DNA from: a virus
IMG/VR virus record: IMGVR_UViG_3300042154_000564
Location: 1-36,462 of that record
Strand: one strand, 5' to 3'
DNA: 36,462 nucleotides
Each line of letters starts with the position of its first letter. Position 1 is the first letter of the stretch. The notes beneath the pieces were generated by a model. It had not been told where the DNA came from, made no database searches, and was given only the letters and a program-made list of their open reading frames with translations. Shown here in pieces: positions 4,601 through 19,051 of this stretch. The position numbers were made by a program, and so were the translations under genes.

Positions 4601-7600
4601 TAGTCACATACCCAATAGTTAATGGAATATTTGGAGTAGCAGGAACAGAAGTAGTAAATTTACCAGGTTCACTAGCAGATAAGAATAATTCTGCACCCGC
4701 AGTAAGTAATGATGTATTTAATCCTTCAAGTCTACCAGCCGTTAGAGCAAACCCATAAGCGTTGGGAGGAATATCTGTAGTCGTTACTCCAATAACTTCA
4801 GCATTTGCAGCCAAAGATGCATTAGCTAGATATACGCTTGGGTATCCGTTTGCTGAAGCTCCGCCTGAAATAAATACACAGTTTGCTCTAGGCAATGTTG
4901 AACCGGTATTGTTCCAAACTCGTATTACTATATCCTGACCAGCGTGAACGTAAGATGAACTATCGTTAAAATACGCTAAAGATTTTGCGCCTGAGTCGTA
5001 GAATACCCTACCTTCTTTGTATGAAGGATCTGCTAAATCTGTAGCAATATCTATATACGTACCAACAGACAAATTACTAGACACGTTGGCAAAACCAGTA
5101 ATAGTTCCACCAGTAGAATTAAACTTAGTATTTGCTGTATCGAATGCAGATTGTGCCAGTGTATTAGCTGTATTTGCTTTAGCGAAAGCGCCATTAGCGT
5201 AACTACCAGCACTTGTTGCATTTACTGAAGCTGTGTTAGCTGTTGAAAAAGCACTGTTGGCGTAGGATCCTGAAGTGACTGCTCGTTGATCAGCTGTAGC
5301 AGCGTTGGTCGTAGCTGTGTTTGCTTGAGTGTAGGCTGAGTTAGCGTATGACCTAGAAGCAGCATCGTTAATATTAACCGTGTTTGCTAATGCGTAAGCG
5401 GCATTGGCATAGACGCCAGCGCTAACACCTTTTTGATCGGCAGTAGCAGCATTAGTCGTAGCCGTGTTGGCTTGTGAATAAGCTGAGTTAGCATATGAGC
5501 TAGCGCTTGTTGCTGTTAAGTTTGTGGTGTTAGCTATACCAAAAGCGGCATTAGCATAATAACCTGATGTTACGGCTCGTTGGTCTGCTGTTGCTGCGTT
5601 CGTAGTCGCTGTATTGGCTTGACCGTAAGCACTATTAGCATAACTACCTGATGTTACGGCTCTCTGGTCGGCTGTTGCGGCATTAGTCGTAGCCGTGTTA
5701 GCTTGACTATAAGCACTATTAGCATATGAACTAGCAGTTGTTGCAGTTAAGTTTGATGTATTAGCAATATTAAAAGCGGCATTAGCATAACTACCTGATG
5801 TTACGGCTCTCTGGTCAGCGGTTGAAGCATTAGTCGTTGCGGTATTAGCTTGACTATAAGCACTATTAGCATATGAACTAGCACTATTAGCAGCACCACG
5901 AACCCAAGTGTCGACAGAATTGTTGGCGGCATCGTAAGCAGATTGCGCTAATGTTGTTCCTGTGTTAGCTTGAACGTATGCACCGTTTGCATGATGATAC
6001 GCAGCTTGAGCAGAGCTTCTTGCAACAGAGTCTGTTCCACTTGAACTTGCTAATAAATCTGTTCCTACTCCAGCGCTAGCAGACGTTAAATCAATAAACG
6101 CACCACGAGCTGAACCGCCTTGCTCAAATATTCGCAGTTTGTTTTGATATACGTCAATGGTTACACCCGCACCAGACAGAGTCGTGTTAGACAGAGCCCT
6201 CCCAAGAAGAATCTCACCACCTTCATCTCCGCCTATTGTGTTGGCTGTTATTTTTCCTTCAACAAAAACATCACCTGAGATTGTACCACCTGAGGTGTTA
6301 AACTTAGTGTTGGCTAGAGAGTAAGCACTATTAGCATAAGAGCCTGCTGAAGACGCGTACTGTGTTCCGGTATTTGCTTGAGTATAGGCACTATTAGCGT
6401 ATACCGATATTGTGTTGGTTGTTGGGCTATAAAATTGAGAGTTTACATGGACTAGCTTCTTAAACGTTGTGTTTGAATTTGAAATTGTTAGAGCAACGTT
6501 CTCAGTTAAATACCCACCAGCAACAATATCAATTTGAGTGTTTATTGCTGTAGCACCAATCACCATGTTACCGCCGGGTTGGCCAATGGTGCTTCCTTGT
6601 ACTATGAAATATCCGTTCAAAGGACCAAAAGGAGTATCTTCTCCTTGATAGAAGTTATAGGTGCTTCCACCCATACCCATATCAGTATAGTAGTCTGTAT
6701 CCGTACCAACGTCTGCGGTAATAACAAAGTCTGCTGACCCGTTGCCGTTAATATTTTGTTGATTAGTCTGAATATAAGTCTCAGAGTTACCAGTAAATTG
6801 AGCAATCAAATCTGGAAGAATCGTTGCTGACTCTGTTGCAATACCTGCAAAGAATTGAGTGTTAGCAATAATATTATTTGCTCTAACATTTCCTGACGTC
6901 GCTAAAGAACCCGACATCACGTCGCCAGATTTGCTTACCTTGGTATTAGCTGCATTAAAAGATGCTTGACTTAGAGCGTTAGCTGAGTTGGCTTTATCGT
7001 GTGCGCTATTAGCTTGAATATACGCGCTATTCGCTTGGGTAGAAATTCTAATAGTAGTATTAGATGTAATCTCAGGAATAAAACTAATACCGTCTTTACT
7101 AAATTCAGCAATTACATTAGATGATTCTGTACCACCGGAAACAATTTTAGTTTTTATACCTGAAGTTTCTGTTATAGTACCAATTATTAAATTACCACCA
7201 AGCTGACTAGTGTTTCCTTGAACAATTAGATAACCGTCTAACGGAAATAAAGCTCCTTGCTCTAACTGAGAACCTTGAATTCCTAAGTCGATATAATTTT
7301 TTTCGTCGGTACCAACGTCAGCAGTAATAACATAATCTGCAGAGCCATGTGGATCAATATTTTGAGCGTTGACTTGAACGTATGAATCCGTATTACCAGT
7401 AAACTGAGCAATTAGATTGGGTAGTGGAGTAGATGATGTTGTTGCTATACCAGCATAAAATTTATTGTATGCAATTACATTTTGAGCATCTAAGTTCTGT
7501 ATCGCCTTAATGTTAGTTACATAAAGTGTGTTATTTGAAGTCTCAAAATATAAATTACTAGACGCACCATAAGCGCCGTTTAAATTAAATTGAATTTGTC

Positions 7601-8060
7601 CATTAGCACCTGAGGCAGTGTTTGCTTTACTGAACGCACTATTAGCATATGATCCTGCACTGCTTGCAGTATTACTCGCGCTGTTAGCAGCATCAAAAGC
7701 ACTATTAGCATGAACATAAGCACTTGAGCTGGTGTTTATTACTTGAGTTAAAGCAGTACCGACATCATATCCACCAATTGCACCGTATGATGCTTGGATA
7801 TTAGGTACTGATAATATGCCACTAGTATAGTCGTACGTGAAATCTGAATTGGATCCAAACGAACCCATATTGTTAAATTGGATCTCGCTATCCAAACCTG
7901 CAGGCTCAGTAACAGCATCAAATAACGTTACGATACCATTACTATTACCATAATACAAATCACCATCTTCGACGTTGATTGCCAACTCACCAGGCTGTAA
8001 TACTGATGGTACGTTTCCACTTACCGTAGACTTTTTAATTTGAATTATTGTATTTGCCAT
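1662..8060 (-). CDS. Giant tail fibre with collagen-like repeats and C-terminal S74 chaperone
   Basis: This 2132-aa fibre protein begins [15 protein letters not shown], an attachment-type start shared with the 705-aa fibre. It then has two copies of a beta domain (about 195-330 and 398-535, each with LIAQFTGN and [13 protein letters not shown]-like motifs), a first Ala-rich heptad array (roughly 690-985), a globular region to about 1330, and a second heptad array (about 1340-1700). A beta domain follows, then collagen-like GPT triplets (about 1870-1940) and a C-terminal peptidase S74 intramolecular chaperone. The S74 start is [10 protein letters not shown] with candidate catalytic S2032 and K2037 and about 101 residues after the cleavage point, ending in a Leu/Lys coiled coil. 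S74 domains help fibres trimerise and then cut themselves off before the Ser. It is preceded by a coiled-coil protein 12 bases upstream and followed by a 2OG oxygenase. It probably contacts the host surface. Confidence 0.88.
2235..2450 (-). repeat. Collagen-like Gly-Pro-Thr triplet repeats
   Basis: Within the 2132-aa fibre, residues about 1870-1940 are runs of G-P-T (with G-P-A and G-S-A variants), interrupted twice by the same AASTVPGP linker. On DNA this is a GGACC-rich tract, locally much richer in GC than its surroundings. Collagen-like triplets form trimeric rods in several phage fibres. The open frame on the opposite strand is a by-product of the triplet composition. Confidence 0.9.
2960..4010 (-). 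repeat. Heptad-register Ala-rich array 1 in the 2132-aa fibre
   Basis: Tandem protein units such as [15 protein letters not shown] followed by [13 protein letters not shown] recur in 21- or 28-residue steps, always whole multiples of seven. Each heptad has the form x-A-[N/A/V]-[ST]-[AS]-x-x. The underlying DNA copies encode almost the same peptide with shuffled synonymous codons. A second array of the same kind lies at about 5110-5990. Confidence 0.85.
5110..5990 (-). repeat. Heptad-register Ala-rich array 2 in the 2132-aa fibre
   Basis: This is the same 21/28-residue modular repeat as the array at 2960-4010, here containing units ending in [10 protein letters not shown] or [12 protein letters not shown]. 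It is nearer the N-terminus of the fibre and separated from the other array by a globular region of roughly 350 residues. Confidence 0.85.
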
Positions 8061-8072
8061 TTATTCTTTTCT

Positions 8073-8576
8073 TTAAAAGGAGCCACCATTTTTAACGATG
8101 TCGTCCTTGGATTCAAATTCAGATTTTAATTTTTTTAGTTTGGTCACAGGAACCAACGGCTCTAAATTACTAATGTATTTATTAAGTGTAGAAATAGAAT
8201 TTTTCAAATCGTTTGATATTATTTGATTTTCTGCCTTCTCATCCTCAAGTTTCTTAACTTGCTTCATATAATCGTTGACTGCAGATTGAAGTCTATTTCT
8301 ATCGTTGATTGCATTTTCAGAACTTCGAATTTGATTGCTTTTATTAGCGTTATCGACAATCAACTCGTTTTTTTGACTTGATACTTCTCCAAACCTAGAC
8401 TCACAATCTCTATAACGGTTATTTAAATCCTCTAGTGCTTTCTTAGTATTTACTAATTCCTCACTAGTATCGTTTAACGTTTTTAATTGTGCTTGAAACA
8501 TAACGTTTTGCTTGACAACCGATAAAAAATTGTCAAGCAAAACTTCCACATAAGCGTTTTGTAATTTCACATCCAT
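8073..8576 (-). CDS. Coiled-coil phage protein with C-terminal NGGSF tag
   Basis: This 167-aa protein is not recognised by family. It is predicted from its composition to be almost wholly helical. Residues about 28-150 are rich in Leu, Lys, Glu, Asn and Asp with heptad-like Leu spacing (SEELVNTKKALEDLNNRY, QVKKLEDEKAENQ, LKNSISTLNKYISNLEPL). There is no signal peptide or membrane segment. It ends VKNGGSF, almost the same tail as the 705-aa fibre just upstream (LNGGSF) and the 86-aa protein before it (INGGRF), which suggests all three dock to, or are processed by, a common partner. AAGGAAG before its ATG is a good ribosome site. Its place between two fibre genes suggests a structural spacer or fibre assembly factor; this is inference. 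Confidence 0.7.
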   Translation of the reverse strand: MDVKLQNAYVEVLLDNFLSVVKQNVMFQAQLKTLNDTSEELVNTKKALEDLNNRYRDCESRFGEVSSQKNELIVDNANKSNQIRSSENAINDRNRLQSAVNDYMKQVKKLEDEKAENQIISNDLKNSISTLNKYISNLEPLVPVTKLKKLKSEFESKDDIVKNGGSF

Positions 8577-8603
8577 TACGAACTTCCTTTTTTCAAAACA
8601 TTT

Positions 8604-10721
8604 TTAGAATGAACCACCATTTAAGTGTTGGAACGTTGGGGCACCACCAGAACTAATTGTTAATATATGACCTTCAGTAGATGAGCCTACTGTTAATACA
8701 GGACTAGTTCCGTTACCTATCATAACTCCGTTGGCAGATAAAGTTTTAACACCCAATCCACCATCTGATACTGAGATCGCATTAAATAATCCTGATACGT
8801 TACCACCAGTAAAGTTAGCATCAAGTGTTGCTCTATTTTCTACTCCGTAAGAAACTACATTACCCGTTGGATTTGAAGTTTCACCTGTGAATAGCTTGAA
8901 TAGGCCATCAGAAGCATCTCTAATCAAACCAGAGAATTTATCAGTGCCGTCGTTATACTGACCATAGAAACCAATGTCTAGTATATCAGCAACGTTATTT
9001 GCCGCTAATTGTAATAGAGAGTCTTCTGTTCTAACTGTCGATGTGTCCAGGGTTACAGTATTACCAGAAACGTATAAATCGCCAGTAATAGACACATCAC
9101 CAGAAATTGTACCACCCGCTGAAGCAAACTTAGTGTTAGCGTGAGCGTAAGCGCTGTTTGCATAATCACCAGAAGTTACAGCTCGCTGATCAGCGGTGTT
9201 TGCGGCAGTGTAGGCTGAGTTAGCGTAAACGCCAGTAGTGTTTTGACTTACATAAGCACTATTAGCGTGTAGATAGGCAGTGTTAGCATAAACACCAGCT
9301 GAAGTAGCGTATTGTGTACCTGTGTTTGCTTGATTGTATCCTGCGTTAGCGTGTAACTGAGCTGTGTTTGCTTGATTGTAGGCGCTGTTGGCGTAAGAGC
9401 CAGCACTTGTTGCGTATTGTGTACCAGTATTAGCTTGTGTATAAGCACTGTTAGCATAATCGCCTGATGTAACTGCTCGTTGGTCTGCTGTGTTAGCTCC
9501 GGTATAAGCGCTATTAGCGTGTAAGTATGCTGTGTTAGCATAAACACCAGTAGTATTCTGACTTACGTAGGCACTATTAGCGTGTAAGTATGCTGTGTTA
9601 GCATAAACACCAGTAGTGTTTTGTGAGATATACGCACTATTAGCTTGTAGATAAGCGCTATTTGCGTACTCACCAGTAGTGTTTTGACTTACGTAAGCAC
9701 TATTAGCATGCAAGTAGGCAGAGTTGGCGTATACGCCAGCGCTTGTTGCGTATTGTGTACCTGTGTTCGCTTGACCGTAAGCACTGTTAGCATAAGACTC
9801 CGCAGCACTTGATGCTATATTACTGTAGTTTGTACCGTCGTTTGTAAATGTCCATGCATCAGTTGTTTCATTCCAGATAATACCAACGTTTGCTGACGAT
9901 CCTCTGTCAATCTCAACGCCAGCGTCTTCAGAAGGGGCTTGACCTTGTGGAATGTCAGCGTTTAGAGTGATAATATTATCACCAAGGTTTACTGTTGTTG
10001 TGTTTGCGTAAGTCGTTTGACCAGATACTGTTAAATTACCAGTTAAGACTACGTCGCCAGAAATAGTACCACCAGCACTTGCAAATTTAGTATTAGCGTG
10101 AGCGTATGCACTATTAGCGTAGTCACCTGATGTAACCGCTCTTTGGTCAGCTGTATTGGCTGCAGCAAAAGCAGAGTTAGCATAAACACCAGTAGTATTC
10201 TGACTTACGTAGGCGCTATTAGCTTGTAAGTATGCAGAGTTGGCATAGCTACCTGTAGTATTTTGACTAACATAAGCTGAGTTGGCGTGTAAGTAAGCTG
10301 AGTTAGCATAAACGCCTGTAGTATTCTGAGACACATAAGCACTATTAGCATGCAAGTAAGCACTATTAGCGTAACTACCTGCAATCGTACCACCAGCTAC
10401 GTAAGCAACGTTTGCGGCTGTGAAAGCTGAATTAGCGAAGTTGTATATGTCGTAACCAGATACGTATATCGTATTTGCTGTAATAGTGTTTGCTGAAAAG
10501 TTCCCGCTCGTGTCTCGTTTAACTATAGTGTTTGCTGTGTTGTTAGCTGTTGACGCGTCAATTGTATCAGTATAGAATTTACCACCAATTGCAACTACAC
10601 TAGAACCATCATTCATCCAAAGTTTATTTGAAACGTTTGAATATGCGGGTTCAGCAATATTGAGTAATGGAGGAGTTCCAGTTACATTAGAATACTTGAG
10701 TTGAATTACGGTATTTGCCAT
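8604..10721 (-). CDS. Tail fibre with Ala-rich heptad arrays, no S74 domain
   Basis: This 705-aa fibre begins MANTVIQLKYSNVTGTPP, an N-terminal module it shares with the 2132-aa fibre and which resembles the N-termini of other phage tropism and fibre proteins. Two heptad-register arrays (about residues 100-220 and 305-535; units such as YANSAYLHANSAYVSQNTTG) flank a beta domain at about 220-305 (GDNIITLNAD, EIDRGSSANVGIIWNE, WTFTNDGTNYSN). The same domain occurs in the 1030-aa fibre. The C-terminal 170 residues are beta-rich and end HLNGGSF. Unlike the other two long fibres it has no S74 chaperone, so trimerisation must be driven in another way, perhaps by the neighbouring coiled-coil protein. 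AGGAAA lies 8 bases before its ATG. Adsorption or short-tail-fibre function is inferred from domains and position. Confidence 0.85.
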   Translation of the reverse strand: MANTVIQLKYSNVTGTPPLLNIAEPAYSNVSNKLWMNDGSSVVAIGGKFYTDTIDASTANNTANTIVKRDTSGNFSANTITANTIYVSGYDIYNFANSAFTAANVAYVAGGTIAGSYANSAYLHANSAYVSQNTTGVYANSAYLHANSAYVSQNTTGSYANSAYLQANSAYVSQNTTGVYANSAFAAANTADQRAVTSGDYANSAYAHANTKFASAGGTISGDVVLTGNLTVSGQTTYANTTTVNLGDNIITLNADIPQGQAPSEDAGVEIDRGSSANVGIIWNETTDAWTFTNDGTNYSNIASSAAESYANSAYGQANTGTQYATSAGVYANSAYLHANSAYVSQNTTGEYANSAYLQANSAYISQNTTGVYANTAYLHANSAYVSQNTTGVYANTAYLHANSAYTGANTADQRAVTSGDYANSAYTQANTGTQYATSAGSYANSAYNQANTAQLHANAGYNQANTGTQYATSAGVYANTAYLHANSAYVSQNTTGVYANSAYTAANTADQRAVTSGDYANSAYAHANTKFASAGGTISGDVSITGDLYVSGNTVTLDTSTVRTEDSLLQLAANNVADILDIGFYGQYNDGTDKFSGLIRDASDGLFKLFTGETSNPTGNVVSYGVENRATLDANFTGGNVSGLFNAISVSDGGLGVKTLSANGVMIGNGTSPVLTVGSSTEGHILTISSGGAPTFQHLNGGSF
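9130..10430 (-). repeat. Heptad-register Ala-rich arrays in the 705-aa fibre
   Basis: Two arrays (about 9130-9800 and 10060-10430) of 21- and 28-residue units built on [YH]-A-N-[ST]-A-Y-x heptads, with the recurrent unit YANSAYLHANSAYVSQNTTG plus one residue. The stretch between them encodes a shared beta domain. Synonymous positions differ between copies while the peptide is nearly constant. Confidence 0.85.
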
Positions 10722-10747
10722 TTTGATTTCCTATTGTTTTTATTATT

Positions 10748-11008
10748 CTAAAATCTTCCACCGTTAATATTTTCAATATTAACTTGAGCTTCTTGTAATG
10801 GAGATGATTCAAAGTCTCCTGTAATTGCATTATATAATAAAACATCACCATCTTGTCTAGACACAACGTTTGCGCCGTATATATCGGTTATTGCTACATT
10901 AACTTTTGGAGTAAAATTTGGAGCCGCAATAGTGGTTTTATTTGCGGGAAGTACTTTGACTTTACCTACAACACCTTGCTGAGGATTGATCGTGCCTTTA
11001 ATAGACAT
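10748..11008 (-). CDS. Small virion-type protein with NGGRF C-terminus
   Basis: This 86-aa protein begins MSIKGTINPQQGVVGKV and contains the phrase DGDVLLYNAITGDFE, a strand-rich 'GDVLxYNxxTGxFE' pattern common in tail and fibre proteins of T4-like marine phages. It ends ENINGGRF, matching the tails of the 705-aa and 167-aa proteins downstream. Its ATG overlaps the stop of the 110-aa gene (TAATG), so translation is probably coupled to it and shares the late promoter at 11361. No catalytic motif is visible. I read it as a minor structural or adaptor protein of the fibre complex. Confidence 0.7.
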   Translation of the reverse strand: MSIKGTINPQQGVVGKVKVLPANKTTIAAPNFTPKVNVAITDIYGANVVSRQDGDVLLYNAITGDFESSPLQEAQVNIENINGGRF

Positions 11009-11340
11009 TATCTAGTCACCGACGGAAGAACTGTTGCAATACCCTCAATAACACGAGTGACTGTGTTTGCGTTATCTCTTATAATTAAATCGTAAACGTA
11101 ACGACCAGCAGTAATGTTTGCGGTATTTGCTGCTGTAATAGATATTGTGATTTCACCATTAGCCGTACCTGTCACATTTGCTGTGATTGTGGTGGCTGTT
11201 GTGGAATGATACGATTTACGCATCATTGATGATGCTGTATGATTCGTTAAATTTACTGCTGTACCATAAACATCTTCAACCGTAACTGTCGATGAAAATG
11301 TTGCACCTTGTTCTATTGTAATCTCTGAGTATGCCGCCAA
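11008..11340 (-). CDS. Beta-sandwich structural protein, TTG start
   Basis: This 110-aa protein starts MAAYSEITIEQGATFSST and has alternating beta strands (TVTVEDVYG, ANGEITISIT, AGRYVYDLIIRD, VTRVIEGIATV). The pattern is like the small baseplate/upper-fibre BppU-type domains that recur in T4-like marine phages. No ATG is available upstream or near the N-terminus; the start is TTG with AAGGAG six bases before it. It is the first gene of the second fibre block, directly below an exact late promoter box, and its ribosome site falls in a 9-bp hairpin (see the regulatory entry). The downstream 86-aa gene overlaps its stop. Family assignment is moderate; reality of the gene is strong. Confidence 0.75.
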   Translation of the reverse strand: MAAYSEITIEQGATFSSTVTVEDVYGTAVNLTNHTASSMMRKSYHSTTATTITANVTGTANGEITISITAANTANITAGRYVYDLIIRDNANTVTRVIEGIATVLPSVTR

Positions 11341-11365
11341 AATAGACTCCTTTTATAGTCTATTT
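11340..11365 (-). promoter_or_regulatory. RNA hairpin masking the ribosome site of the 110-aa gene
   Basis: In the minus-strand RNA, AAAUAGACU (11365-11357) pairs perfectly with AGUCUAUUU (11348-11340) around an 8-base loop AUAAAAGG. The ribosome site AAGGAG is half in the loop and half in the stem, and the first base of the UUG start is paired. The left arm overlaps the end of the late -10 box, so RNA started there would lack that arm. Confidence 0.65.
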
Positions 11366-11368
11366 ATA
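11361..11368 (-). promoter_or_regulatory. T4-type late promoter for the second fibre block
   Basis: The minus strand reads TATAAATA followed by GACTATAAAAGG in the 32-base gap between the APS-kinase-like gene and the 110-aa structural gene. Exact match and placement support a late promoter driving 11340 to about 1075. Initiation six to eight bases below the box would give a leader of about 15 nt starting near AAAAGGAG. Confidence 0.78.
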
Positions 11369-11372
11369 AGAT

Positions 11373-11777
11373 TTAGCTTTCTATTTTAGATAAAATATCT
11401 TTGATATTGTAGTTGAAATCAGTAATAATTAAATCAACTTTTTTAGGAATCTGAAATATATTATTAGTATCTTCGAATCTACCACTAGATATGGTATTCA
11501 TCCATATCATATAATCAGGTTCAAATATACTTCTTATTTCATCTGTAGGTGCAACAAAGTCGCATATCACATATTTAAAACCATATGTTTGACTATCTTC
11601 AGCAAGATTTTTCATTCTTAGCGATTGTCTAATTCTACCTTCATTAGAAAAGTCCCAGTCATTTTCACTTGCTCTTACGTCATCAGCATTGTACCATTTA
11701 CTTGGTAAATGTTTATTTAATTCTCTAGCTAGAGTTGTTTTACCTGAACCAGGCAATCCCATTACCAAAATTTTCAA
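11373..11777 (-). CDS. APS kinase-like P-loop kinase (CysC family)
   Basis: This 134-aa protein is a small P-loop kinase. Walker A is GLPGSGKTT (7-15). It is followed by WYNADDVRASENDWDFS and GRIRQSLRM, the nucleotide and substrate region typical of adenylylsulfate kinase-like proteins, and by CDFVAPTDEIR and GRFEDTNNIF, phrases also found in that family. APS kinase phosphorylates adenylylsulfate with ATP to PAPS, the donor used by sulfotransferases. It is shorter than a typical CysC of about 200 aa, so a related kinase activity is possible. The start is TTG; no ATG exists before the Walker A strand, and an ATG at codon 6 would delete that strand. It is the last gene of the cassette, two bases after a sulfotransferase-like gene, which fits a joint role in sulfate transfer. 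Confidence 0.75.
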   Translation of the reverse strand: MKILVMGLPGSGKTTLARELNKHLPSKWYNADDVRASENDWDFSNEGRIRQSLRMKNLAEDSQTYGFKYVICDFVAPTDEIRSIFEPDYMIWMNTISSGRFEDTNNIFQIPKKVDLIITDFNYNIKDILSKIES

Positions 11778-11779
11778 GA

Positions 11780-12412
11780 TTACTCTCTCTCACTAAATTT
11801 TTTAAGTCCTTTTTTGACTGTCTCATCCAACCAATAATCCTCAACATATTTTACATATTTTTTATTAGGTGATTCATCTAAGAATTTAAAAACATTTGGA
11901 TTATTATAATCTAAAGGGAAATCAATTACTTTTGCTAACCATTTTAAATAGTTTTGTTTGTGTAGAAATAATGATTCTAAACTTAGATATTCTAATTCAT
12001 AATTTAATTTATTATAAGTGTCAAGGGCTATATCTAAAGTTCTACCTTTTCTTAATCTTTTTTGTTGTTCTGTATTAATGTGTTCATCTCTTACTATGAT
12101 ACCAACAATCACTTCAATTCCAAAACTCGACACTTTATCACAAAACTCTTGTATTTTTGGAACAGTAATGTTTCCATCATAGACAAAGGGACAACTAATA
12201 TCAGTTACGAAATAGTCCGAAGCATCAAACATTTCAATAGTTAATTGTGAAGGGTCGACAAAGTACTGAGCAAAGTAATCTTCATCAGTCGGTACCCAAT
12301 AATTTTCCAATATTGCGTCCCATCCTTTAACTTCAGAGTGAACGCTATAAATTCTACCGAATATATGATTGCCTGAACCTTGAGGACCAGATAATAATAA
12401 TAGTTTTTTCAT
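11780..12412 (-). CDS. Sulfotransferase-like P-loop protein, tandem copy B
   Basis: This 210-aa protein begins MKKLLLLSGPQGSGNHIFGR, followed by HSEVKGW. The GPQGSGNH loop sits where sulfotransferases carry the 5'-phosphosulfate loop, with the H-x-E-V-x-G-W pattern after it, and VRDE at 107-110 resembles the 3'-phosphate-binding segment. It is a paralogue of the 211-aa protein immediately upstream (same MKK-LLSGPQG-GNH start, DNYW/ENYW at 36-39, ISCP at about 72-75, an internal LYKQ/LHKQ-type YLK segment), and its ATG overlaps that gene's stop (ATGA). PAPS-dependent transfer is inferred from the loop and from the adjoining APS-kinase-like gene; a nucleotide kinase-like role is the alternative. 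It is not a canonical Walker A because the Lys is absent. Confidence 0.6.
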   Translation of the reverse strand: MKKLLLLSGPQGSGNHIFGRIYSVHSEVKGWDAILENYWVPTDEDYFAQYFVDPSQLTIEMFDASDYFVTDISCPFVYDGNITVPKIQEFCDKVSSFGIEVIVGIIVRDEHINTEQQKRLRKGRTLDIALDTYNKLNYELEYLSLESLFLHKQNYLKWLAKVIDFPLDYNNPNVFKFLDESPNKKYVKYVEDYWLDETVKKGLKKFSERE

Positions 12413-13044
12413 GGTTTATTAGCGAACGTTATACCAAATTTGTTGCCTTTATCTAGTTCAACATATTCTACATTATGAATATATTTTTCGTTAGCATCAT
12501 CTTCTAGTATTTTGTTTAATCTTACATCATCATATGCAATAGGAATATTTAAGTTTAAACTCTTTAAATAATCTTGTTTGTATAGATATAAAAGTTCGTA
12601 AGATAAAAATGTTGGACTATCTATATTGTGTAGTTGGTCTAGCAATATGGGTAATGTAAATTTATTTCTAATTCTATTTTGTTGATATGATAGAATTGTT
12701 TGGTCTCTACCTACAATAGCAAATTCAATCGTGATGCCGCATTCTCTCACTACATTTGCAAAATCCATTAAATTTGGAACATATATAGGATTCGTTTCTG
12801 AATTGTATATACCTAGAGGACAACTAATACTTGTAAAATAATAATCACTTTGCGACCAGTCAAAATCTCTAAGTAAAGATGTGTCTTTCCAATGTTTAGC
12901 AAAAGGCTCAGAGAATCTGTGTGCTTCCCAATAATTGTCTAATAAAGATTTCCATCCATAAACTTCAGGATGTAAACTAAAGACTTTACTCCATAAATGA
13001 TTACCTGCTCCTTGAGGACCAGATAGTATCAACATTTTTTTCAT
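12409..13044 (-). CDS. Sulfotransferase-like P-loop protein, tandem copy A
   Basis: This 211-aa protein begins MKKMLILSGPQGAGNHLWSK and continues VFSLHPEVYGWKSLL, which is very like the sulfotransferase pattern G-x-x-x-[SA]-G-[TN]-x followed by HPxVxGW. IVGRDQTILSY (110-120) could be the 3'-phosphate-binding R...S segment, with R113 and S119. Walker A Lys is missing, which argues against an ordinary kinase. Its ATG follows the glutamine amidotransferase stop by three bases and it overlaps copy B by four, so the two copies are translated as a pair. Acceptor unknown; a host surface sugar or phage fibre residue is inferred from location. A tandem duplication followed by strong divergence is evident from the shared anchor motifs. 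Confidence 0.62.
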   Translation of the reverse strand: MKKMLILSGPQGAGNHLWSKVFSLHPEVYGWKSLLDNYWEAHRFSEPFAKHWKDTSLLRDFDWSQSDYYFTSISCPLGIYNSETNPIYVPNLMDFANVVRECGITIEFAIVGRDQTILSYQQNRIRNKFTLPILLDQLHNIDSPTFLSYELLYLYKQDYLKSLNLNIPIAYDDVRLNKILEDDANEKYIHNVEYVELDKGNKFGITFANKP

Positions 13045-13047
13045 AAT

Positions 13048-13602
13048 TTACTCAATGATAAAGTTTAATATTTCTTTTGGAATAAAAGATTCTTTCATTC
13101 GTTCAGGATGCCACACTATTGCACCAATTTTAAATTGATTATGTATCCAACATTCTACATTATTTTCTTCATCAACGCAAAGTATTTTTGTTTTTGGAGG
13201 AGTACTTGATATTTTTAGATTATGATATGAGTTGACTAACATCGATTTATCAAAATATTTAACATGATGATTGACACCCCATTTTATAGAGGCATCTCTT
13301 TCAACAACGCCTTCAAACAACTCAGATAATAGAAAAGCTCCATGACAAACACCTATGATAGGTTTATTTTTAGTCATCATAAAAGAAATAAGTCTAGTTT
13401 CAACAATTCTGCGAGTCACAGTATCGTTTCCACCAGACAGTATTAATAAGTCTATATCGCTATATAACTCTTCTTTTATATTGACATTATTTGGAATAGG
13501 AATAATTTCATGCTTATCAAATAAATCGTACCAAGATGGTTCTAATGAGTCATAATTAAAACCATTATGTGATATTATTCGCTGAGTTATTCCTATTCTC
13601 AA
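13048..13602 (-). CDS. Class I glutamine amidotransferase (peptidase C26-like)
   Basis: This 184-aa protein has the class I GATase triad: nucleophile C86 in GVCHGAF, and H165 and E167 in WHPERM. ILSGGND (54-60) supplies the oxyanion strand. The start MRIGITQR with a later EPSWYDLF resembles the glutamine amidotransferases of bacterial surface-polysaccharide clusters, including the Campylobacter capsule phosphoramidate type, which release ammonia or glutamate from glutamine or gamma-glutamyl intermediates. There is no fused synthetase domain, so it may feed the asparagine-synthetase-like protein at 18038. It starts with TTG directly after an in-frame stop, five bases below the ferritin-like gene, with only a weak ribosome site, so expression is probably coupled. 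Fold confidence is high; substrate is unknown. Confidence 0.85.
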   Translation of the reverse strand: MRIGITQRIISHNGFNYDSLEPSWYDLFDKHEIIPIPNNVNIKEELYSDIDLLILSGGNDTVTRRIVETRLISFMMTKNKPIIGVCHGAFLLSELFEGVVERDASIKWGVNHHVKYFDKSMLVNSYHNLKISSTPPKTKILCVDEENNVECWIHNQFKIGAIVWHPERMKESFIPKEILNFIIE

Positions 13603-13607
13603 TTATC

Positions 13608-14300
13608 TTACCATGCGTAAGCTTGTTGAATATATTCTGTACCTTTTTTAGATTGTACAGTATTTTTACAACTAATTTCCCAAAGGTCTTTACGAATCAT
13701 GTCAGCTAATTTGAAAACTCTAGACTTAACATCATCAGATTTAACAATTTTGCTTAATTGTGATGTACCAATTTTTGAGTGGAAACCTTCATCCTTAGCG
13801 ATCGCACGATATCTTGAACTGATGAATGTATCATCAATTGTTTCAGCCATTTGATTCCAAACAGCTTCAGCACGACCCTCTGCAATCATTTGATATACAG
13901 GAAGAATGATATCTTCATATTCAGTACCATATTTTTCTAAAAGAGTAGCACCTTTAGCTGTATTCATGCTTTGTTCTTTTTCGATCGCGGCTTTAACATC
14001 AACTTCTTCGCCTGTAATGTGTTCAATAACTTCTTTTACCATACGAAAATGTTTTGCTTCATCCATTGCTTGTTTGGTTAACATAGTTAAATGAACTGGG
14101 TCTGCGTCATTAGGCATTTCAGAGATTTGTTTAGAAATCTCCACCATGTTCATACGCTCGTTCACCATACGACCAATAAAGTGGTCAACGAGGTGACTGT
14201 GGTCTGGTTTAGATTCAAAATACTCTTTAACGTTGGCTTTACTTGCTTCAAATAAAGCAGTATTTTGTTGTTGTAATTCTTTTATAAAACTTTTTGACAT
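13608..14300 (-). CDS. Ferritin-like di-iron protein
   Basis: This 230-aa helical protein shows the four-helix di-iron carboxylate pattern: E48 (VNERMNMVE), E81-x-x-H84 (MDEAKHFRMVKEV), E141/E145 (AEGRAEAVWNQ) and E171-x-x-H174 (KDEGFHSKIG). Families with such E and ExxH pairs include ferritin-like oxygenases, MiaE-like hydroxylases, N-oxygenases of the AurF type and ribonucleotide-reductase-like proteins; I cannot choose among them. Length fits an enzyme rather than an iron store. Its ribosome site is the strongest of the cassette: AGGAGA at 14309-14314, nine bases before ATG, inside the end of the upstream gene. A TATAAATA box 55 bases upstream may give it extra late transcription. It is noticeably less AT-rich than its neighbours, which may indicate a different origin. 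Confidence 0.75.
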   Translation of the reverse strand: MSKSFIKELQQQNTALFEASKANVKEYFESKPDHSHLVDHFIGRMVNERMNMVEISKQISEMPNDADPVHLTMLTKQAMDEAKHFRMVKEVIEHITGEEVDVKAAIEKEQSMNTAKGATLLEKYGTEYEDIILPVYQMIAEGRAEAVWNQMAETIDDTFISSRYRAIAKDEGFHSKIGTSQLSKIVKSDDVKSRVFKLADMIRKDLWEISCKNTVQSKKGTEYIQQAYAW

Positions 14301-14301
14301 A

Positions 14302-15042
14302 TTATCTTTCTCCTGATAAAGCTTGTGAATAATTAAAATTTAGTATGTATTCTCTATTTATAATAGATATTTTGCATGAAAATTTTTGACGGGTGATAAT
14401 ATATGTATTTTCATCTATAAAGGATTCTGGTTTTTTTATATCAACAGCTTCGAAAATATCTTCGATTGTATAATATTTAAATTCACCGTCTCTGTCTATA
14501 TTAAATTTCAATATTCTGCTGTTTTCTTCTTTGATACTTTTAAGCATCTTCTCATCATTTTCATACCATTCATAACTAGGAAATGGTAACCCCCATCCAC
14601 CAACTTTTTTCCACCAAAAATAGCAATCATCATCGTTATCATAACAAGAAACAAAAGTTGCTTTAGGAAATATATTGTGTAGAAAATCTAAATGATATGC
14701 AAACCAATGAGATTTTATAATTTTTATCTTTTTCCAGTTATCAAAAGCATTCATAAATTCTGATATAATTTCTTCTTTCGATAGTGTGTTTAGTACATCA
14801 AACTTTTGTCCGTGTTCGTTGTAAGGACCCCAATAAACTCCTCTATGATTACCAATAGACATAATTTTATCATTAACGTCAATCTTTCTGCTCCACTTTC
14901 TCTTTTTAGATAGTTCAGTTTGATTTATGTCGTCGCTACTAACCAAATATCGGTGAACACTACTCCATTTTGAACCTGGTGTTCCAACTAGAAGAATTAA
15001 ATCTTCGCCTTGATAATTGTCAATATCTATATCAAATTTCAT
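14302..15042 (-). CDS. Sulfotransferase-like or degenerate P-loop protein
   Basis: This 246-aa protein has an early strand-loop LILLVGTPGSKWSSVHRYL (15-33) in which GTPGSKWSS matches the 5'-phosphosulfate loop of sulfotransferases better than a kinase Walker A. A central KIIKSHWFAYHLDFLHNIFP segment is followed by ATFVSCYDNDDDCYFWW, the place where sulfotransferases have the 3'-phosphate site (normally Arg...Ser); the usual Arg is not evident here. Aromatic-rich WWKKVGGWGLPFPSYEWYEN follows. It starts with ATGA overlapping the methyltransferase stop. It is not a close paralogue of the pair at 11780-13044. Function is inferred from the loop and from the nearby APS-kinase-like gene, so the call is tentative. 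Confidence 0.5.
   Translation of the reverse strand: MKFDIDIDNYQGEDLILLVGTPGSKWSSVHRYLVSSDDINQTELSKKRKWSRKIDVNDKIMSIGNHRGVYWGPYNEHGQKFDVLNTLSKEEIISEFMNAFDNWKKIKIIKSHWFAYHLDFLHNIFPKATFVSCYDNDDDCYFWWKKVGGWGLPFPSYEWYENDEKMLKSIKEENSRILKFNIDRDGEFKYYTIEDIFEAVDIKKPESFIDENTYIITRQKFSCKISIINREYILNFNYSQALSGER
14355..14362 (-). promoter_or_regulatory. Possible internal late promoter before the ferritin-like gene
   Basis: An exact TATAAATA on the minus strand lies inside the C-terminal codons of the 246-aa gene, 55 bases above the ferritin-like ATG. In DNA this AT-rich a few chance matches per strand are expected, so this coding-region box is weaker than the three intergenic ones. The unusually good ribosome site downstream makes it worth listing. 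Confidence 0.35.
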
Positions 15043-15620
15043 TTTTTATATTTCCAAAATAATCTAACATTACTAAGTTTAACATCGTTACCTTTTCTGA
15101 TATATTCACTAGGTATTCTGTGCTCAATTTTTATAGAGTCATCGATAATAGTTAAATTATTATCTAAAGCTACTTGATATATATCTTCTAAAGTCCAAGA
15201 ATAAAACTGGTCTTTTATCTGAGATGATGGAGAAAAAGATGGATTGACTCTCATATAGATAACTCCATTTGGTTTCAATTTGGAACTTATCCAAGACATT
15301 TGTTCATATACTAATTGTTTAGATATGAAGTTGATTGAACCTAATGCTAGTATAATATCGTAAGAATTATCGCTGGCTGGATAATCTAAAATGTCTCCAA
15401 CCCAGTCTGCATTTTCATTGGCTAAATCGACACCTTCAATTTGAGGGAAATAAGATTTAAATTCATTATATCCACAGCCAACATCCAAGATCTTATCATT
15501 TGAATGTAGTTTGATATCTTCTACCAAATTTATGCCAGAAATAGGATAACAAGATAGGTCTGTGTTCCACAATTCAGGTAAATTTTCTGGGTTAGATTTA
15601 AAGTAATCAATAATTAACAT
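15039..15620 (-). CDS. Class I SAM-dependent methyltransferase
   Basis: This 193-aa protein has the Rossmann methyltransferase core: motif I ILDVGCG (44-50), GVDLAN (63-68) as the following acidic strand, GDILDYPASDNSYDIILALGS-type motifs through 75-95 (split here as the SAM-binding and motif IV strands), and a late WSSKLKPNG-like turn (ISSKLKPNGVIYMRV). Length and layout are like UbiE/Methyltransf_11 small-molecule methyltransferases rather than DNA methylases; no DPPY or target-recognition region is present. It lies 11 bases after a 2OG oxygenase and overlaps the 246-aa gene by four bases. The acceptor cannot be told; a sugar or metabolite of the same cassette pathway is a reasonable inference. 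Confidence 0.82.
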   Translation of the reverse strand: MLIIDYFKSNPENLPELWNTDLSCYPISGINLVEDIKLHSNDKILDVGCGYNEFKSYFPQIEGVDLANENADWVGDILDYPASDNSYDIILALGSINFISKQLVYEQMSWISSKLKPNGVIYMRVNPSFSPSSQIKDQFYSWTLEDIYQVALDNNLTIIDDSIKIEHRIPSEYIRKGNDVKLSNVRLFWKYKK

Positions 15621-15630
15621 ATGTAATATT

Positions 15631-16242
15631 TTATTTTTTAGTTTTTATAATGTAATTAGCTGAAATTGAAATTCTAGGGGTTTTATTTAAATTTTTTGAC
15701 ACACAGTGACTCAAGCTAGATGGAAAAATAATCAATCTGCCCTTTTCAGCTTTATATCCTATTGTAGACGAATTAATTTTGGTTTCTTCCACAGAATATT
15801 GATTGTCTACGTAATTTAAAGAACTTTGAAAAGGGGAATTAAATAAAATGTTTCCTGACCCCTCTGGTGTAGAAACATAGTAAACTATACTTAAATGAGT
15901 TCCTAAATGTGTATGAAATTCTTGATACGTATTTTCATAATTGACATTATACCAACTCTCAGACAATCCCACAGAATCTGTTTTAAATCCTGAGTGATTT
16001 GAATATAGAAAAACTCTTTTTGATATTTCTTCAAATAATTTTTTAAAATTATCATTTCTATGAATACTCGTTTCAGAGTGAAAAGACTTTAAAGTATCAC
16101 CAAGCCAACCATCTTGACCCTCAGTGTGTTGGTGTTGCTCGCTGTTCAACAATATATTTTCCCAAATTGAATTTTGTTCTTTATCAAATAAATTGTCTTC
16201 TACATAAATGGCTGTAGGAAACCAATATTCAAAATTATCCAT
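15631..16242 (-). CDS. 2OG-Fe(II) oxygenase, Oxy_5-like
   Basis: This 203-aa protein belongs to the putative 2OG-Fe(II) oxygenase group with N-terminal WFPTAIYVEDNL and the late strands LIIFPSSLSH and PRISISANY. Candidate metal ligands are H110 and H112 (FHTHLGTHLSIVYYVS) and H179 (SLSHCVSK), with R190 as the 2OG-binding residue. The H-x-H arrangement is usual for this subgroup. AAGGAT precedes its ATG by nine bases. It sits between two other cassette genes and resembles the 203- and 175-aa oxygenases at 16849 and 17469 more than the prolyl-hydroxylase-like ones at 16280 and 19048. Substrate unknown. Confidence 0.82.
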   Translation of the reverse strand: MDNFEYWFPTAIYVEDNLFDKEQNSIWENILLNSEQHQHTEGQDGWLGDTLKSFHSETSIHRNDNFKKLFEEISKRVFLYSNHSGFKTDSVGLSESWYNVNYENTYQEFHTHLGTHLSIVYYVSTPEGSGNILFNSPFQSSLNYVDNQYSVEETKINSSTIGYKAEKGRLIIFPSSLSHCVSKNLNKTPRISISANYIIKTKK

Positions 16243-16279: not shown

Positions 16280-16852
16280 TTACCAAGCCCATGAGACAAA
16301 AGAATATCTAACACCAGAAGTAACCGGTAATACCAGATGAGGATAAAGAAAATTAGAAGGAAAAACTATTATTTCACCCTTTTCTATGTTTAATTTTTCG
16401 TCTCCCCACATAATAAATTCTCCTCCTTGATAATCATCATTTAGGCAACCAAGTACAGTTAAAATAGGTATTCCTTTTCTATTACCATCGAAACATGAAT
16501 GAATATGGTCGCAGTGTTCACCCATGATTTGATTTTCGCTATATCGATTAAACCTAACGTCGGAAAAATCTGTCCAACCACCAAACCACGAAAAATTAAG
16601 GTCAGTAACATATTGTTTTAAACTATTATATACTGCTTTAGTTACATAATCGTTTAATTCAACAGAGTCTGTGTAGGAAATTTCTAATTCTCTATCTCCG
16701 TTGAGTGATGATGAAATATTAGTATTCGGGTTATGATATGCGTGTTTACTCCATTTATTATTTTCTATCGCACTTATAATTCTGTCACAAGAATCATCAC
16801 TGATAACTTTATATACTTTTACGTAACTTTTTATGTCGGTGTCAATTTTCAT
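16280..16852 (-). CDS. 2OG-Fe(II) oxygenase, prolyl-4-hydroxylase-like
   Basis: This 190-aa protein has all expected residues of a PKHD-type dioxygenase: H113 and D115 in GEHCDHIHS, distal H172 in YPHLVLPV and R182 in GVRYSFVSWAW. YQGGEFIMWG (141-150) is the usual strand between the two metal-binding parts, and IIVFPSNFLYPH precedes the distal His. A catalytic enzyme is therefore likely. Its ATG overlaps the previous oxygenase stop (ATGA), so the pair is co-translated. It differs clearly from the same-type proteins at 1075 and 19048, so these are not recent copies. Confidence 0.88.
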   Translation of the reverse strand: MKIDTDIKSYVKVYKVISDDSCDRIISAIENNKWSKHAYHNPNTNISSSLNGDRELEISYTDSVELNDYVTKAVYNSLKQYVTDLNFSWFGGWTDFSDVRFNRYSENQIMGEHCDHIHSCFDGNRKGIPILTVLGCLNDDYQGGEFIMWGDEKLNIEKGEIIVFPSNFLYPHLVLPVTSGVRYSFVSWAW

Positions 16853-17460
16853 TTTAAATATAGTCCTGTTAGGTTGTCGTTTGTTCCTAGTTGTCCTTTA
16901 ATAAAAGTATTAAAAGAAAGGCTAATTCTAGGATTCTTTGAAATTGTATTGACTACATGGTGAGGTAAATTTGATGGAAATATGACCAAATCACCAATTG
17001 ATAATTTTAAAAAATAATTACCAGAATTAAATTGATTTGAAATTTTTGAAGGAAATACAATTTCTCTTTCGTGTTTCTTAGAAAAAATAATAGAATCAAC
17101 TAATTCTTCAACACTGAAGTAAAATACACCTGATATGAAACTATTAGGATGCGTGTGATGATGATGTGATTCTGTGGGGTGTGTCACGTTAATCCAAGAT
17201 TGAGTGATGTATACCTCAATACTTTCTTTTGGAGATATAATATCTTTTACATAATTGTTGATATGCTCTTGTATGAAGTTTCTAATATCAAGAAAATAAG
17301 AGTCTAGTACATTTCTATTATTAGAAGTCCAGTTACCTGCATTTTTATGTAGGTCTTTAGAAATCAAGTCAACTGTGACTAGTTCTTCGGTTGTAAATTT
17401 TCTGTTGATGTTCGTTAAATAAAGGGCATCAGCAAAGAGAGGTATTATTTCACTAGACAT
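16849..17460 (-). CDS. 2OG-Fe(II) oxygenase, Oxy_5-like
   Basis: I place the start at 17460, giving 203 aa: the RNA reads TAGGAACTATGATG, so AGGA is correctly spaced for the second ATG, and the upstream stop provides the G-rich part. The protein begins MSSEIIPLFADALYL and has a run of four His before THPNS (H99-H102, H104), where the H102-x-H104 pair aligns with the metal site, then PHHVV (H167/H168) and PRISLSFN (R178). A run of consecutive histidines at the active site is unusual. It follows another Oxy_5-like gene and overlaps a prolyl-hydroxylase-like gene. Substrate unknown. Confidence 0.82.
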   Translation of the reverse strand: MSSEIIPLFADALYLTNINRKFTTEELVTVDLISKDLHKNAGNWTSNNRNVLDSYFLDIRNFIQEHINNYVKDIISPKESIEVYITQSWINVTHPTESHHHHTHPNSFISGVFYFSVEELVDSIIFSKKHEREIVFPSKISNQFNSGNYFLKLSIGDLVIFPSNLPHHVVNTISKNPRISLSFNTFIKGQLGTNDNLTGLYLK

Positions 17461-17468
17461 CATAGTTC

Positions 17469-17996
17469 CTAAAATATAGAACAATTAAAAGAGATGCTTA
17501 TTTTCGGTAAAGAATCTAAATTTACTTCGGTGTGATGTTTTAACCACGAAGGAAAAATTATCAAATCACCAACTTTCGGTGTTATTTGTATAGGATTATC
17601 TGAAAATAACGACATTTCTGCTCCACATCTAGGGTCTGTAAATACTAAAGACCCTGTATTTCCTGTGCAATGTAAATATATTATTCCTGAATATTCGGAC
17701 CCACCGTGAATATGGCTATGATTAAATGCTCCAGTTGGACAAATATTATACCACATTGTGGTTATTTTTAATTTATTATCTATTAAATTAGACAATTTGG
17801 ATTCTAAATCAGAAACTAATTCGTTTATTGATTTTATATCTAGAGTGTGTATATTTTTTATCGACTGAGTGCCTAACCTAGTACTAACTGAGATTGTGTC
17901 CTTAGGAACACTTACGTTCAGTAATTCTTCGGTCTTATTTAAATAAGCTTCAGATTCTATAAAAATTTTAGTAGGAAATATATCAAGGGTTTTCAT
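17469..17996 (-). CDS. 2OG-Fe(II) oxygenase, Oxy_5-like, with Lys in place of Arg
   Basis: This 175-aa protein begins MKTLDIFPTKIFIESEAYLN and carries H93, H95 and H97 in FNHSHIHGGSEYSGIIYLH, then H154/H155 (WLKHHTEVN) and PKISISFN. The residue where relatives have the 2OG-binding Arg (PRIS) is K165 here, which could weaken or change cosubstrate use. Its ATG has no clear ribosome site; the 41-base gap above it contains the perfect palindrome AGTATATACT (18006-18015). It precedes another member of the same subgroup, so local duplication followed by divergence is likely. Confidence 0.78.
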   Translation of the reverse strand: MKTLDIFPTKIFIESEAYLNKTEELLNVSVPKDTISVSTRLGTQSIKNIHTLDIKSINELVSDLESKLSNLIDNKLKITTMWYNICPTGAFNHSHIHGGSEYSGIIYLHCTGNTGSLVFTDPRCGAEMSLFSDNPIQITPKVGDLIIFPSWLKHHTEVNLDSLPKISISFNCSIF

Positions 17997-18037: not shown

Positions 18038-19051
18038 CTATAATGATGGCATTTTAACTAAATTCAACTGAGAGTTTAGACCAGTAACACCTTGAATATA
18101 TTCTTTTGCCTCCCACTTATAGGTAAGTGCTGTTGTAGAATATAGTTCAAAGTTTTTATCTAAATTGGTCCAAGCCCATGCTTGATAATCTAAAGTGTCA
18201 AAAAAGTCATACTCATCGAAATCTTCTATCATCATTTTATGATTATTATATATATCATTCTTTATAGTTTTAGTCAATCTTTTTAAATTTCTATGATATT
18301 TAAAAATAAACTTAGCTAACCACTTTAATTGATAAAAATGCTCAAACTCCAATTTATTTTTATCTAAAATATTTAGTATATGGTCTATAACTTTTACTTT
18401 AAAATTTTTAGGAAAATTGTCGTATAGATTATCTATAGTATTTTCTAAGTGTGAGACAAGATTATTCTTAACTAGATAATCAGGTATATCTTTATTAAAT
18501 TCTTCAATGAAATTATCATAACCGACTTCTCTTGAATACAGACTCTTCATTCGGTTTTCACTTAATAGTAAATTATATCTAACAGAAGGAAAAAGTTGGT
18601 CTGCAGGATTGCCTGTTATAATTGCTCCTTTTTCATTAGTTAAATGTTCATATAAGTTATTAAACTTAGTCTCTTCTTTCAAACTTATGATTTCGCAATT
18701 TTCTAAAACCCACTCATATAAATCAGGATTCTCAAATCTACATCTGTTATGCATAACAGTAACTTTAAACTGTATATTGTTTTTGTGTAGTGCAGCCACT
18801 ATTAATGATGAGTCTATACCTCCAGACCAACAAACCGCTAGATTTTTGTCTTTATAATTTTTAGCAGTTTGGTCTGTTATTTCAGAAAATGATTTTGATG
18901 TTGACATTTTGTGTATATCAATTTTATTTTCATTATCATAAAAAATACCAAATCTATCTTGTTCGGGAGTTGTTAGATGTAATTCTTTAGTGATTATTGA
19001 TATACATTTTTGATTAAAATTTTGTCTATCAAATTCTGATAGATCTATCAT
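18038..19051 (-). CDS. Asparagine-synthetase-like ATP pyrophosphatase, no glutaminase domain
   Basis: This 337-aa protein has the PP-loop WSGGIDSSLI (75-84) of N-type ATP pyrophosphatases and, about 70 residues later, GNPADQLFPS (147-156), which matches the position and shape of the SGEGADELFGGY motif of asparagine synthetases but with changes. It lacks the N-terminal Cys-nucleophile glutaminase domain of AsnB. The C-terminal half is helical, as in AsnB. Such proteins adenylate a carboxylate and replace AMP with ammonia or an amine. The free-standing class I glutaminase at 13048 in the same cassette could supply ammonia. Its ATG overlaps the upstream oxygenase stop (ATGA). The product is unknown; amidation of a sugar acid or peptide carboxylate is inference. 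Confidence 0.78.
   Translation of the reverse strand: MIDLSEFDRQNFNQKCISIITKELHLTTPEQDRFGIFYDNENKIDIHKMSTSKSFSEITDQTAKNYKDKNLAVCWSGGIDSSLIVAALHKNNIQFKVTVMHNRCRFENPDLYEWVLENCEIISLKEETKFNNLYEHLTNEKGAIITGNPADQLFPSVRYNLLLSENRMKSLYSREVGYDNFIEEFNKDIPDYLVKNNLVSHLENTIDNLYDNFPKNFKVKVIDHILNILDKNKLEFEHFYQLKWLAKFIFKYHRNLKRLTKTIKNDIYNNHKMMIEDFDEYDFFDTLDYQAWAWTNLDKNFELYSTTALTYKWEAKEYIQGVTGLNSQLNLVKMPSL

Follow-up and report, generated by a model that had tools for sequence, protein, structure and literature searches.

Single phage sulfotransferases are known from marine OM43 phages and from Synechococcus phage S-SCSM1, with no adenosine 5'-phosphosulfate (APS) kinase described alongside them, and according to the OM43 phage paper it is unclear what these enzymes do in phages (PMC10580990). 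Viral cysC genes, annotated as adenylylsulfate kinases, have been reported in metagenomes as auxiliary metabolic genes of sulfur metabolism, and neither paper mentions a sulfotransferase (PMC8066274, PMC12766990). In the bifunctional 3'-phosphoadenosine 5'-phosphosulfate (PAPS) synthetase, ATP sulfurylase is combined with APS kinase. In a different pathway, Cj1415-Cj1418 of Campylobacter convert glutamine, ATP, and CTP to CDP-phosphoramidate 3'-phosphate (PMC11800397). Here, we analyzed a 36-kb virus fragment, IMG/VR record IMGVR_UViG_3300042154_000564 (positions 1 to 36,462; hereafter the window), in which a run of seven genes encodes a predicted short kinase of the APS kinase family (KIN) together with three sulfotransferase-like proteins (ST1, ST2, and ST3). 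The sulfotransferase fold is thus phage-encoded as in OM43 phages and S-SCSM1, but the family is a different one. No description of a phage cassette joining a sulfotransferase and an APS kinase was found in the open-licence literature, and the first-pass annotation of this DNA likewise knew of none.

That annotation had noted an APS-kinase-like gene behind a tandem pair of sulfotransferase-like genes, with a third such gene upstream. All four open reading frames were located at the expected positions on the minus strand in the list for the window. They belong to seven genes (11373-15620) transcribed in the order MT, ST3, FER, GAT, ST2, ST1, and KIN, with two genes, GAT and FER, between ST2 and ST3. 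The gaps or overlaps from KIN through MT are 2, -4, 3, 5, 1, and -4 bases, which bears out the tight packing that had been claimed. The seven genes are as follows.

KIN, 11373..11777, minus strand: predicted short APS-kinase-family P-loop kinase, 134 amino acids
ST1, 11780..12412, minus strand: sulfotransferase-like protein, 210 amino acids; paralogue of ST2
ST2, 12409..13044, minus strand: sulfotransferase-like protein, 211 amino acids
GAT, 13048..13602, minus strand: stand-alone class-I glutamine amidotransferase or gamma-glutamyl hydrolase type
FER, 13608..14300, minus strand: helical diiron-oxidase-like protein (heme-oxygenase-like or ferritin-like fold)
ST3, 14302..15042, minus strand: 246 amino acids, sulfotransferase-like from motif order
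MT, 15039..15620, minus strand: S-adenosylmethionine-dependent methyltransferase; Pfam Methyltransf_23/11 above cut-off

The set is real, conserved, and unusual, and consists of known kinds of enzymes. We read the run as a phage group-transfer cassette of the sulfation type, in which KIN would supply the donor, ST1-ST3 would transfer the group, and the other genes would make the acceptor; we give this reading roughly an even chance.

Sequence analysis of KIN

KIN scored 29.7 bits against the Pfam APS_kinase model (cut-off, 21.1), and AAA_18 was also above its cut-off with a slightly higher score. When a profile of 24 relatives was compared with the PDB, APS kinases or PAPS synthetases made up 22 of the 24 matches at E<0.001 (best, 7.3e-11). 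Alignment of this profile by hhalign with nine bacterial APS kinases gave 98.3% over residues 3-84, versus 33% with sulfotransferases, confined to the P-loop. As read off two alignments, D32, R35, F43, R48, R54, P77, and R82 of KIN occupy conserved APS-kinase positions, and its FEDTNxxFExP segment aligns gap-free with FTGxxxPYExP of APS kinases. KIN and APS kinase (CysC, PF01583) accordingly have Walker A, D-x-x-R, F-S-x-x-x-R, F-x-x-P...R, and FxxxxxxFExP in common and in register, whereas KIN is shorter (134 versus about 150-200 amino acids) and, at the position of the conserved ENIRR Asn, the KIN family has an invariant Gln. Judged from these sequences, KIN is a short variant of the APS kinase family, for which APS-kinase activity is predicted. 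The earlier identification thus stands at the level of the family, but for a short form that lacks the lid segment considered below.

Analysis of the sulfotransferase-like proteins

ST1 and ST2 are paralogues in one family and adjoin each other in most relatives. GPQG-G-NH, H25, G30, W31, R113, D114, Q121, Q122, and R124 are invariant across 40 members; the loop GPQG[AS]GNH is fixed apart from its A/S position, and the Walker-A Lys and Ser/Thr are missing from it in every one. HPEVYGW is present in ST2 and is replaced by HSEVKGW in ST1. Single-sequence searches with ST1, ST2, or ST3 (Pfam, PHROGs, NCBIfam, and PDB) gave nothing useful. The structure comparison that the first-pass annotation had proposed was run for the 211-residue ST2, of which AlphaFold2 gave a confident model (predicted local distance difference test score (pLDDT) 94.4; predicted template modelling score 0.89). 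In Foldseek, tyrosylprotein sulfotransferases with bound 3'-phosphoadenosine 5'-phosphate ranked first (E 8.1e-5, prob 1.0) and small kinases ranked below them; against a viral library, the two best matches, which are also the best named ones, were sulfotransferases. In single pairwise hhalign comparisons, as distinct from a database search, ST2 gave 79% with Sulfotransfer_3 proteins over 31 columns spanning the 5' loop and HPxV, versus 1% with APS kinases.

ST2 shares with tyrosylprotein sulfotransferases and Sulfotransfer_3 (PF13469) the fold match, a 5' loop followed by HPxV, and a later RD...R segment. It differs in the loop itself (GPQGSGNH versus PRSGTT), in the sulfotransferase Ser, which is Gln in ST2, and in its length of ~210 amino acids with no significant sequence match to these proteins. 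The 3'-phosphate-site region of both ST1 and ST2 reads R113...Q121/Q122...R124 in place of the canonical R...S, invariant in the 40 relatives, and their 5' loop is the variant GPQG[SA]GNH. As far as the ST2 model indicates, ST1 and ST2 have a sulfotransferase-like fold as members of the fold family and not as close relatives, and PAPS is a plausible donor.

The ST3 family (24 relatives) contains GxPGSxWS, KSH, and YRxDxxxxxWW, ordered as the donor sites of sulfotransferases. The first of these is GTPGSKWSS in the window, and its G-P-G-S-W-S residues are invariant across the 24 relatives. In the same type of pairwise hhalign comparison, ST3 gave 63% with Sulfotransfer_3 proteins, in an alignment that superimposes the 5' loop, K-S-H, and R, versus 7% with APS kinases; its Pfam sulfotransferase match reached only E 0.14. 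ST3 is classed as sulfotransferase-like from motif order only. Comparison of ST3 with ST1/ST2 by hhalign was not significant and does not support one common family. When viral contigs were searched with a pattern based on the window ST3, there was no match, and the relatives were taken from gene neighbourhoods. The motifs to which attention had been drawn, GPQG[AS]GNH, GTPGSKWSS, and HPEVYGW, are therefore real and conserved, and the sulfotransferase assignment holds as a fold likeness for ST1 and ST2, but for ST3 on motifs, with an Arg to Asp change in the window copy.

Conservation and distribution of the gene set

Subsequently, 44 viral loci found via ST2 were surveyed. FER accompanied ST2 in 39 of them, MT and an ST3-type gene in 33 each (the ST3 cluster count takes in some neighbouring 2-oxoglutarate (2OG)-type proteins), and GAT in 21. 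The usual order was MT, ST3, FER, GAT, ST2, and ST1, on contigs of up to 329 kb and in differing surroundings. The window motifs were conserved at identities down to ~37%, and their conservation is therefore not due to chance. The conserved unit is ST1, ST2, ST3, FER, and a methyltransferase, often with GAT, rather than a kinase with sulfotransferases; the first-pass annotation had overlooked this wider set, which was seen in about 40 viral contigs and of which KIN is an optional member. Four module-bearing records have KIN, namely L029, where it sits inside the module between FER and ST2, L041, where KIN and a nucleotidyltransferase lie 3.7 kb from ST2, and two jumbo contigs (~75 kb away). 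L041 carries the fullest version, with ST3, an epimerase, a UDP-glucose/GDP-mannose dehydrogenase, MT, ST2, a sodium symporter, a second MT, a 2OG-type protein, KIN, and the nucleotidyltransferase.

L041 cassette, 4189-13172, all of it in one viral contig: the symporter is of the sodium:solute type

AlphaFold2 modelled FER with confidence as a bundle of helices (pLDDT 93). Foldseek paired this model with a TenA homologue, UndA, PaaA, aldehyde-deformylating oxygenase, and PolF, each at prob 1.0, although no E value was better than 0.005. E48, D80-E81-x-x-H84, E141/E145, and D170-E171-x-x-H174, i.e. two DExxH motifs with Glu ligands, are invariant. Based on this model, FER is most likely a diiron oxidase, with a predicted metal content. 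GAT matched Pfam GATase at 4e-15 and keeps GVCHG and WHPER; its best NCBIfam match was gamma-glutamyl-CDP-amidate hydrolase at 84 bits (next match, 42; cut-off, 250).

A run of FER, a cupin, and a sulfotransferase was also found on bacterial contigs of Janthinobacterium sp. and Massilia atriviolacea (L129 and L130). A sulfatase-superfamily gene lies near this run in both, and an MT homologue in L129 only.

L130, chromosomal operon: FER 6437-7138, cupin 7340-8002, sulfotransferase 7992-8651

A FER search of 294 Massilia-related genomes gave one match; because FER is nearly absent from these related genomes, the bacterial set is rare and probably mobile. Among cultured phages, ST2, FER, and the window DNA had no match, and ST3 was matched only in a single-cell marine virus. 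In addition, the module contains proteins of ~240-320 amino acids from clusters c4 and c82 and another one like them (L019:1744-2649, L024:4947-5900, and L041:8662-9390), which start with loops of sulfotransferase-like appearance (GAEGLDGANFL, YNAGSYGTFINW) and have no Pfam sulfotransferase match; c4 occurs in several copies per locus.

Relatives of KIN in other phages and in bacteria

The survey of KIN covered 80 related viral loci, which form 21 lineages at 70% identity. In the largest group, KIN is located between a uvsX-like recombinase and a DnaB-like (gp41-type) helicase, with thymidylate synthase near. A small nucleotidyltransferase follows KIN in most of this group and is fused to it in other lineages. 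This partner has a GRWQPWHxGH...ISATKIR motif and is of the PF01467 type (CTP_transf_like); the only solved relative found was MJ0541, which we take to be a nicotinamide mononucleotide (NMN) adenylyltransferase. Fusions (GRxQPxHxGH...ISATxIR) were observed at L103:8001-8774, L072:3723-4520, L121:4854-5810, and others, and the KIN homologues of Stenotrophomonas and Xanthomonas phages have a fusion-like length. Such a fusion may be a small-scale counterpart of the bifunctional PAPS synthetase, or else an enzyme of nucleotide salvage. It resembles PAPS synthetase in that KIN relatives are fused to or adjoin a nucleotidyltransferase in many other phages, whereas the phage partner is a small NMN adenylyltransferase/CTP_transf-like domain of ~130 amino acids and the window KIN stands alone.

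A sulfotransferase directly adjoins the KIN relative in L107 and L121 and lies 2.0-2.8 kb off in L112, L120, and L125; all five gave a profile match, and PF13469 or PF00685 was found in all three that were scanned. In L068, a PF03567 sulfotransferase (E 3.2e-13) is 2.9 kb from the KIN relative. Weaker cases are c136, which directly adjoins KIN in L114 and L122-L124 (PF13469, E 8e-4, below cut-off), and c45, which has the motif but no Pfam match and lies ~1 kb from KIN in the L065 group. In total, a Pfam-confirmed sulfotransferase was present at most 3.5 kb from KIN in 4 of the 21 lineages, or in 6 when weaker matches are included. The motif pattern gave one spurious match among 890 genes of the ST-module loci used as a control. 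As a yardstick, four of nine full-length APS kinases in Massilia-related genomes were ~400 bp or less from a same-strand Sulfotransfer_3 match, two of which four may be orthologues. KIN was also matched in five cultured phages of Stenotrophomonas, Xanthomonas, and Clavibacter, and no sulfotransferase was named close to the homologue in the two of these that were examined.

In large phage contigs, NodU-type carbamoyltransferase genes were seen near the ST module and adjoining KIN (L025:10607-12031 and L133:1911-3407). Jumbo contig G300 encodes a 413-residue protein (L136:1993-3234) that is divergent from KIN; its loops (RVGSTLL, CRRENLLEHALSW) look like those of sulfotransferases, but Pfam gave no sulfotransferase match.

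Proposed function and rival explanations

The computations show that KIN belongs to its family, that ST2 resembles sulfotransferases in fold, and that the genes are conserved and linked; we infer all catalytic steps, the donor, the acceptor, and a benefit to the phage. APS would come from the host, or from a phage enzyme encoded outside the contig, and KIN would phosphorylate its 3'-OH to form PAPS. ST1, ST2, and probably ST3 would be sulfotransferase-fold enzymes that move a group from a 3'-phosphonucleotide to an acceptor, which FER, the methyltransferase, the amidotransferase, and the adjoining 2OG oxygenases would most likely build or decorate. Because the run lies between fibre genes, this acceptor would most likely be either part of the phage fibre, as a modified residue or a glycan, or a glycan on the surface of the infected cell. 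A fuller version is put forward only tentatively: a compact APS kinase, with a mini-nucleotidyltransferase replacing ATP sulfurylase in many genomes, would make PAPS or another 3'-phosphonucleotide, and an undescribed family of sulfotransferase fold would pass the group on to an acceptor, on the fibre or on a cell-surface glycan, that the diiron oxidase, the methyltransferase, and the 2OG oxygenases had made ready.

Several observations weigh against the sulfation reading. The lid segment RDxKGLYxKARxG, largely invariant in nine bacterial APS kinases, has no counterpart in KIN, whose alignment to these enzymes is confined to its first 84 residues. ST1 and ST2 have no significant Pfam sulfotransferase match, and the Foldseek TM-score of ST2 is only ~0.43 with a large root mean square deviation. 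The window ST3 has D135 where at least 90% of its relatives have the 3'-phosphate-site Arg, and C140 for Ser; judging by these residues, it may be altered or inactive. KIN was found in 4 of 30 module-bearing records and not in the other 26 (many are fragments), and its largest group (37 of the 80 loci) lies mostly amid uvsX/gp41 replication genes, with no sulfotransferase found nearby. Pfam analysis of candidate genes detected no ATP sulfurylase in the window, itself a fragment, so that of the two steps to PAPS no more than the second could be encoded, leaving "PAPS synthesis" incomplete. A nucleotidyltransferase partner of KIN was not found anywhere in the 36-kb contig either, and the joint pathway that had been proposed is not visible in the sequence. 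The idea that donor supply and transfer are encoded together survives in part: KIN relatives lie near Pfam-confirmed sulfotransferases elsewhere, but ATP sulfurylase was not found and the set mostly occurs without KIN. The sulfation reading is plausible and better supported than the first-pass annotation could tell, but the PAPS pathway is incomplete.

The replication setting and the absence of KIN from most module loci would also fit a kinase unrelated to ST1-ST3, which acts in nucleotide salvage or is linked to replication, has an NMN-adenylyltransferase-like partner, and lies here by chance. The largest KIN group, between uvsX and the gp41-type helicase, near thymidylate synthase and beside the MJ0541-related nucleotidyltransferase, points in that direction. 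However, several independent lineages have KIN near sulfotransferases, in addition to L029, L041, and the window, with only 1 of 890 genes matched in the motif control, and the solved-structure matches are APS kinases and not salvage kinases; we regard a chance neighbour as unlikely. It is quite unlikely that ST1-ST3 instead belong to P-loop proteins with some other role, be it kinase-like or non-catalytic. Small kinases do occur among the ST2 Foldseek matches, a significant Pfam sulfotransferase match is lacking, and the conserved Arg is lost in ST3, but the kinases follow the tyrosylprotein sulfotransferases, the top solved and named viral matches of ST2 are sulfotransferases, no relative has the Walker-A Lys and Ser/Thr in its GPQGxGNH loop, and the loop, HPxV, and the later RD...QQxR segment keep the sulfotransferase order. 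The hhalign values for ST2 and ST3 point the same way (79% and 63% with sulfotransferases versus 1% and 7% with APS kinases).

The main and sharpest rival concerns the transferred group, which would not be sulfate but of the phosphoramidate type, with a 3'-phosphonucleotide donor other than PAPS. By analogy, GAT would cut a gamma-glutamyl nucleotide amide, KIN would phosphorylate the 3'-OH, the ST-fold enzymes would transfer the phosphoramidate-type group, and MT would methylate it. The O-methyl-phosphoramidate pathway of Campylobacter likewise uses an amidotransferase-type hydrolase and a nucleotide-diphosphoramidate 3'-kinase, and its donor is a 3'-phosphonucleotide analogous to PAPS (PMC11800397). 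Moreover, the gamma-glutamyl-CDP-amidate hydrolase model scores twice the next NCBIfam match for GAT, CTP_transf_like is the usual partner of KIN, and a methyltransferase belongs to the conserved set. The score of GAT is, however, far under the 250-bit cut-off of that model. PF00391, the PEP-utilizer domain that we take to be carried by glutamine kinase, was found in none of 12 module-bearing phage records (incomplete contigs) versus all 14 control genomes; in this the phages differ from Campylobacter. The window and L029 are the only loci whose module has both KIN and GAT, KIN being mostly without GAT, and the KIN profile is specific for APS kinases. Phosphoramidate-type transfer is consequently quite unlikely in our estimation.

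Returning to the sulfation reading, this little-known gene set is common to many phages and is also present in a few bacteria; its occurrence suggests that certain phages encode machinery of their own to add sulfate or a related group to a protein or a sugar. If sulfate is transferred, this would be the first self-contained phage sulfation system as far as we found, and would bear on adsorption and on how the host is recognized; were the group a different one, the donor chemistry based on a 3'-phosphonucleotide would be new. A donor-making kinase and several transferases, in a set that is also present on bacterial chromosomes, are defined proteins to express and assay.

Genomic setting of the run

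Upstream of the seven genes are five 2OG-Fe(II) oxygenases and a PP-loop protein, and fibre and baseplate genes flank the run, as listed below.

2OG-Fe(II) oxygenases of the same run, 15631-16242, 16280-16852, 16849-17484, 17469-17996, and 19048-19584, minus strand: Pfam 2OG-FeII_Oxy
PP-loop protein of the same run, 18038-19051, minus strand: weak matches and phrog_424
Tail-fibre proteins, 1662-8060: PHROGs
L-shaped-fibre-assembly match, 11008-11340: PHROGs
Baseplate wedge and fibre matches, 22415-25507: PHROGs
gp8-type wedge protein, 31947-33275

The PHROGs matches to tail-fibre, L-shaped-fibre-assembly, and baseplate-wedge proteins on both flanks confirm the fibre-locus setting noted earlier; the virus is T4-like. 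The G+C content is ~30% in the run versus 36-40% across most of the remaining contig. An additional gene at 1075-1647 brings the number of 2OG-Fe(II) oxygenase genes in the 36-kb contig to six, of which four are consecutive, in the low-G+C run of the fibre locus. The product of 18038-19051 resembles PP-loop ATP-pyrophosphatases, its weak matches being a PAPS reductase PHROG, asparagine synthase, and TilS.

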